Origin: JBDRGX01 sp043817485 [NCBI: bacterium]
GTDB taxonomy: Bacteria > JBDRGX01
Direction of reading: 5' to 3'
Length of the DNA: 6,520 nt
Assembly: GCA_043817485.1 (NCBI GenBank)
Contig: JBDRGX010000080.1
Location: 1 to 6,520, forward strand
The number at the start of each line of letters is the position of its first letter. The first letter of the stretch is position 1. Positions 299 through 1,370 of this stretch are shown here, one piece after another. Under the pieces are notes generated by a model. It was given only the letters and a program-made list of their open reading frames with translations. It had not been told where the DNA came from and ran no database searches. The position numbers and the translations under genes were made by a program.

Positions 299-1370
299 TT
301 AAATATTTTCCATTTGTTTTTTTTGTTCTTCAATAATTAAAGCATTTATTAAATCATCCATATCTCCATCTATAATATTATTAAGATTATATAAAGTAAG
401 ATTAATTCTATGATCTGTTATTCTATTTTGAGGAAAATTATATGTTCTAATTTTTTCACTTCTATCGCCTGTGCCTACCTGTGTTTTTCTATTTTGATCA
501 ACATTATTTTTTTCTTGGTGTTTTTTAAAATCAGATAATCTTGATAACAAAACTCGCATTGCTTTTATTTTATTTTGCTGTTGAGATCTTTCATCTTGAC
601 ATTGAACTACTATTTTTGTTGGAAGATGAGTTATTCTTACAGCAGAATCTGTTGTATTTACGCTTTGTCCACCTTTGCCACCAGATCTAAAAACATCTAT
701 TTTTAAATCTTTTGGATCTATTTTAACATCTTTTTCTTCCATTTCTGGCAAAACTACAACAGAAACAGCTGAAGTATGAACTCGTCCACGTGTTTCAGTA
801 TCTGGAATTCTTTGTACTCTATGAATACCACTTTCAAAATTCCAAAATTTATAAGATTTTTTTCCTTCAACAATAAAAATTATTTCTTTATATCCCTTTA
901 CTCCACTTATATGTAAATCAATTATTTTCATTTTCCACTTTTTTTTTTTCTATATATCGACTATACATTCTAAATAAATTTGCAGCAAATAAACTAGCTT
1001 CTTCTCCTCCTGTCCCAGCTCTAATTTCTACAATTACATTTCTATTTTCATTTGGATTTTCAGGTAATAAAAATTCTTGTATTTCTTGTTCAGTTTTATT
1101 AATTTTTTCTTTTATTTCCTTAATTTCTTGTATAGCTAATTCTTTTAATTCTGCATCTTGATTATTTTCTAACATTTCTTTTGCATTATTTTCTTGTTTT
1201 TCTAATTTTTTCAAATAAAAATATTTTTCAAAAATGAATTTTAATTTACTATATTCTTTACTTGTTTTTTGAAATTCTTCGTTATTACTTATTATTTTTG
1301 GATCTGATATTTTTTGTTCTAATTCTTGATATTTTTGTTTTAAATCTTCTATTTTTTCAAATAATTTCAT
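299..1370 (-). CDS. prfA: Peptide chain release factor 1 (RF1), interrupted by a +1-type frameshift at an A11 tract
   Basis: RF1 releases the finished protein from the ribosome at UAA and UAG. The gene appears as two overlapping reading frames: an N-terminal half (1370-918, coiled-coil rich, with [26 protein letters not shown] at about 114-139) and a C-terminal half (to 299). They join at eleven A residues (minus strand, 949-939). Dropping one A gives EKKKWK and a continuous 356-residue protein, normal for RF1 (E. coli 360). In that product the stop-codon recognition tripeptide is PDT at 189-191 (RF1-type PxT, not the SPF of RF2) and the catalytic GGQ is at 233-235. The HRVQR and [11 protein letters not shown] motifs are intact. 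No other lesion is visible, which argues against an old pseudogene. The unshifted frame ends at UGA (920-918). AGAGG lies 5 nt before the ATG, which overlaps the cobU stop by 4 nt. The shift may be a homopolymer sequencing error, a real mutation, or one rescued by transcriptional slippage. Confidence 0.95.
939..949 (-). repeat. A11 homopolymer at the prfA frame break
   Basis: The coding strand has eleven consecutive A residues between G (950) and GTGG (938-935). The RF1 frame needs 10 (or 13) A residues here. With 11, the downstream frame is lost and the ribosome meets a UGA about six codons later. In-frame A10 and A9 tracts also occur in cobU (coding strand, around 1673-1682 and 1735-1743), so long runs are tolerated in this genome. 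Runs of this length are known sites of both sequencing error and RNA polymerase slippage. Confidence 0.95.

Follow-up and report, generated by a model that had tools for sequence, protein, structure and literature searches.

An RF1 gene interrupted only at an A11 tract in a very AT-rich bacterial contig

The window analysed here, that is the whole stretch of 6,520 nucleotides, has a G+C content of 24.4% and carries prfA, the gene for the termination factor RF1, in two reading frames (Table 1). The ATGA overlap of cobU with prfA and the one-base spacing between prfA and fdhD place prfA in a seemingly compact operon, the neighbours of which are open. The palindromic intergenic stretch listed in Table 1 contains an inner palindrome, GCGTATTAGATAATACGC, together with an outer imperfect palindrome and, as single-stranded DNA, folds far better than its shuffles (z −3.68). 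By its sequence, it looks like a mobile palindromic element. A distant DNA search gave no match for this palindrome in plasmids or phages, and neither its core nor the flank of the A11 tract has an exact match in viral contigs.

Table 1. Features of the window with their positions and strands
Feature	Positions	Strand	Remarks
fdhD, 5′ part	1–297	−	ATG one base past the prfA stop; leaves the window edge
prfA (RF1)	299–1370	−	Two frames: from 1370 to A11, then the +1 frame to 299
prfA, C-terminal part	299–931	−	210 residues with PDT and GGQ; TAA end; TIGR00019 positions 150–357
prfA, N-terminal part	918–1370	−	150 residues in the zero frame; TGA end; TIGR00019 positions 5–146; PCRF profile 1–135
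A11 tract (T11 on the plus strand)	939–949	−	RF1 frame changes by +1 here
cobU	1367–1897	−	Intact; its terminal TGA is part of the ATGA shared with the start of prfA
Palindromic intergenic stretch	1985–2110	−	G+C-richer; past tRNA-Gly
DUF374 gene (Pfam PF04028)	2131–2763	−	Beyond tRNA-Gly; divergent from gap-pgk
tRNA-Gly		−	
gap, pgk, start of tilS		+	tilS incomplete
Two tRNA-Met		+	

The two prfA ORFs are joined on the minus strand by the sequence GAAAAAAAAAAAGTGG, which includes the A11 tract. The zero frame halts at a TGA and the RF1 frame restarts one base on (W K M K I I D L H), the switch falling within EKKKWK of RF1, between EKKK and WK. RF1 is not contained in one open reading frame: the frame changes at A11, the longest A or T run of the whole window. 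The eight ORFs of the window hold 26 A/T runs of at least 7, five of which are A9 or longer, and the frame is broken only by A11. As the join coincides exactly with the longest of these 26 runs, a one-base change in the length of the tract is the only sensible reading of the break. The preliminary description had claimed that the gene is broken only at the poly(A) tract, and we indeed find a single lesion, the A11 at 939–949, with no further stop or frameshift. Its prediction that A10 or A13 restores the frame holds as well, the productive frame being +1 relative to the N-terminal frame, and removal of one A yields, as it had stated, a 356-residue RF1 with PxT (as PDT) and GGQ.

This A10 read-through scores 502.5 bits with TIGR00019 (NCBIfam RF1), against a cut-off of 423.25 that neither half of prfA reaches on its own; the C-terminal ORF covers positions 138–194 of the PCRF profile and the RF-1 domain. 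When aligned with PDB chain 5j30_QY, which we take to be E. coli RF1, the read-through shows no gap over the join. The PxT and GGQ motifs are defining features of RF1, and the P and T of PxT as well as GGQ are present in the window RF1 and in 131/131 other aligned RF1s. These 131 distinct proteins, taken from the surveyed loci, served to count the columns with a conservation of at least 95%: the window RF1 departs from 0 of 68 such columns, 9 of them in the N-terminal part and 59 in the C-terminal part, which makes this a weak test for the former. In a leave-one-out comparison on the conserved columns, the other RF1s show a median of 0 departures and a maximum of 4. The halves had been called perfectly conserved; this is correct at the invariant sites but not overall, as the near-full-length RF1s found share about 46–56% of their residues with the window RF1. 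The intact conserved sites limit the time for which prfA can have been functionless, but they fit equally a sequence artefact, a mutation of recent date or a frameshift that the cell tolerates.

Other long A tracts of the window lie in open frames. cobU, which apparently shares its operon with prfA, contains an in-frame A10 at 1673–1682 and an in-frame A9 at 1735–1743, two tracts that act as natural controls for miscounted lengths, and the tilS ORF stays open across two A9 tracts. Across the five genes without a break, of which tilS is partial, one A tract of at least 10 was observed versus a mean of 0.98 expected from 1000 synonymous-codon shuffles; since long A tracts are at the codon-use expectation, selection is not needed to account for them. 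At the join site, the A run does not exceed 8 among 134 other RF1 loci, several of which share genomes and most of which come from organisms of higher G+C.

We surveyed RF1 in 296 Spirochaetota genomes, 384 Omnitrophota genomes, and 35 genomes of the phylum of the genome G305. At an E-value of 0.001, where RF2 is also counted among the matches, the RF1 query found 294/296, 382/384, and 34/35 of them, respectively. Among the matches listed for Spirochaetota and Omnitrophota, the rows with stops are two with ordinary C-terminal TGA, and the G305 phylum adds two further ordinary TGA ends and one weak row (G724:C33, 30% identity, three stops). The genomes G462, G445, G728, and G733 were discarded as carriers of a broken RF1, their internal TGA codons being ordinary gene ends, as was G637 as a carrier of a split gene, with a run of N (assembly gap) at the break. 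By hand count, 27 of the 384 Omnitrophota genomes, and likewise 16 genomes of the Spirochaetota sample, lack any match stronger than about E 1e-65. A repeated search of the 27 Omnitrophota genomes gave RF2-like rows (31–45% identity), fragments, many of them at contig ends, or nothing; one of these genomes, G454, has a row at 38% identity with one TGA. Among 139 loci whose RF1 match reaches 42% identity or more, the site of the join is spanned in a single frame in 138, the remaining one starting past the site at a contig edge. At one locus (L176, G741:C60), pieces of RF1 lie in two frames through a short direct duplication away from the site and not at a homopolymer; it belongs to an unrelated genome, and its break is either an assembly error or real.

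From these sequences, frameshifted RF1 genes look rare. No second poly(A) frameshift in RF1 was found among the matches listed, in samples from which close AT-rich relatives are absent. The searches of these genomes yielded no close relative, the best near-full-length RF1 identity being 56%; a scan of genome contigs with the C-terminal part gave at most 66% identity, and about 46–54% for near-full-length matches, in the best 80 of 324 relatives. By phosphoglycerate kinase (PGK), no close relatives were found in sets of 40, 1, and 81 genomes. A poly(A) frameshift in prfA/RF1 was not found in the open-licence literature either, as judged by the titles and abstract openings of the papers listed.

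In a tree of 31 PGK proteins, which contains no starred branch and has one other row on a very long branch, the window groups with Omnitrophota (SH-aLRT 87 and 90), and the highest PGK identity in a set of 40 genomes, 61%, is to an Omnitrophota genome. The sequences thus compared weakly suggest an affiliation with Omnitrophota, which is only tentative because the best GAPDH match among ten genomes is a Spirochaetes MAG (62%), with Deltaproteobacteria and Omnitrophica genomes each at 60%. The window possibly comes from an unusually AT-rich member of Omnitrophota that is absent from the genomes searched.

As an explanation of the break, we put first, with a probability of somewhat under one half, an A10 tract whose extra A is a miscount of its length, so that one ordinary full-length RF1 would be made; this and the other weightings given below are judgements and were not computed. 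The miscount could stem from a read, library-PCR or assembly error, or from a minority strain variant picked by the assembler, and the change would then sit in the record and not in most genomes of the population. The sole disruption in 356 codons lies where the window has its longest homopolymer, the kind of site at which sequencing and replication slip most, while no decay is seen elsewhere (0/68 conserved columns changed) and A10 aligns gap-free over the join. The apparent rarity of frameshifted RF1 (138/139 loci in one piece at the site, A run of at most 8 in 134) points in the same direction. Homopolymer indel errors in (meta)genome assemblies likewise change a length by one base at the longest homopolymer, with the gene otherwise intact. 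Against a miscount, none of the 25 other A/T runs of at least 7, including the A10 and A9 of cobU and the two A9 of tilS, closes its ORF, and errors are therefore not widespread in the contig. Short-read consensus, too, is usually correct even at A11.

A real and fixed A11 is a serious possibility that we hold to be less probable. RNA polymerase slippage would then yield a share of A10 (or A13) transcripts giving a working RF1, whereas the remaining transcripts would give a dead fragment of 150 residues ending at the UGA: a tolerated damage and not a programmed regulation. Sliding of ribosomes on AAA codons, which occurs on poly(A) (PMC4363877), could contribute; a shift of +1 or −2 is needed here, and poly(A) sliding is not limited to −1. 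The absence of any other lesion, the unchanged conserved columns, the confinement of the indel to a long A tract, and an AT-rich window with A tracts at the codon-use expectation all agree with slippage; judged from sequence evidence, slippage and a miscount fit equally well. On the other hand, the same A11 is found in no relative, the closest near-full-length RF1 being at 56%, and the tract, whose length does not exceed the expectation from composition, bears no mark of selection.

The preliminary description had drawn on endosymbiont precedents, and that of Blochmannia is borne out: eight genes of B. vafer, among them dnaX, dnaG, and pth, and thus genes of replication and translation, are reported to carry homopolymer frameshifts that slippage may correct (PMC3017870). 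Since homopolymer frameshifts that slippage possibly corrects are already known for essential genes of Blochmannia (PMC3017870), the present case, if real, would at most add one more to them. For two insect endosymbionts, a review gives 12–50% of corrected transcripts in frameshifted genes (PMC5009743). The B. vafer genome is described as having 153 coding polyA tracts of at least 9 (PMC3017870); at the resulting rate, a set of five such tracts would include one or more shifted tracts in about 1 in 4 cases, if the present genome behaves like that of B. vafer. In vitro, deletion is said to predominate when E. coli RNA polymerase transcribes an A11 tract (cited in PMC6260861), which suits the need for one deleted A. 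Against slippage here, where the loss of one A (or the gain of two) is required, stand the lacZ A7–A11 reporters, in which insertion exceeds deletion in efficiency at least twofold, and the lesser slipping of E. coli RNA polymerase on A runs than on T runs (both PMC6260861). Laboratory drift shows that longer repeats gain more indels and that these are also bypassed more (PMC3812077).

The present case resembles those of Buchnera and Blochmannia, in which rescue is thought or shown to occur, by an AT-rich composition and by the nature of the damage: in a gene essential for information transfer, a long A tract carries a one-base indel and the frame is otherwise intact. It differs in that the latter are endosymbionts, with dnaX, dnaG, and pth as the genes concerned in B. 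vafer, whereas here the gene is prfA, no relative shares the frameshift, and the organism, probably of a different phylum, is at most a possible endosymbiont. Slippage in endosymbionts was reportedly also treated in a 2008 PNAS paper.

The programmed frameshift of prfB (RF2) offers another comparison, likewise a release factor gene in two frames that requires a +1 shift. The prfB shift comes early, at codon 26 in E. coli (PMC5009743), on an in-frame UGA that RF2 itself reads, whereas prfA of the window shifts at poly(A), near codon 143. We rejected a programmed frameshift with feedback by RF1: as RF1 does not read UGA, the stop of the zero frame, no feedback loop results. The two marks of the prfB type, a conserved shift site and a self-read stop, are both lacking, 138/139 RF1 loci crossing the site in one frame. 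We found no evidence for a programmed control of RF1.

Quite improbable in our view is a real A11 of recent origin, as a null or mixed A10/A11 allele or as an early pseudogene in a lineage that has another prfA copy or uses UAG stops rarely or never. In genomes like that of B. vafer, indels at homopolymers are described as key initial events of gene erosion (PMC3017870), and the stops of the five complete genes of the window, four TAA and one TGA, include no TAG; five stops are, however, too few to count, and every strongly conserved residue of RF1 is retained. Least probable by far is an RF1 made as two polypeptides that assemble, with reinitiation at ATG 931: the stop of the N-terminal ORF lies 11 bases downstream of this ATG, an overlap that permits reinitiation, but the ORFs meet inside the PCRF domain (profile 1–135 and 138–194), making two separate working proteins unlikely, the conserved-looking WK just upstream of ATG 931 is part of the C-terminal half in the read-through, the N-terminally shorter PDB chains of RF1 start at query residues 99–111, well before the cut, and ATG 931 is preceded by a weak Shine-Dalgarno-like gtgga, compared with aggagg, gagga or agagg for gap, pgk, and prfA.

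The significance of the locus depends on which reading is correct. If the tract was miscounted, A tracts of at least 10 in very AT-rich contigs can fake broken essential genes. Should A11 be real, leaky transcription is what a termination factor relies on, and the tolerance of poly(A) damage would reach RF1 and extend beyond the insect endosymbionts from which it is already known. That a very AT-rich, Omnitrophota-affiliated bacterium with a fixed RF1 frameshift lives on slippage-supplied RF1 is, taken as a whole, rather unlikely; were it true, the capacity for UAG termination would be set by transcription infidelity, and this would be, as far as the searches show, the first such case for RF1 and possibly a first step to dropping UAG.
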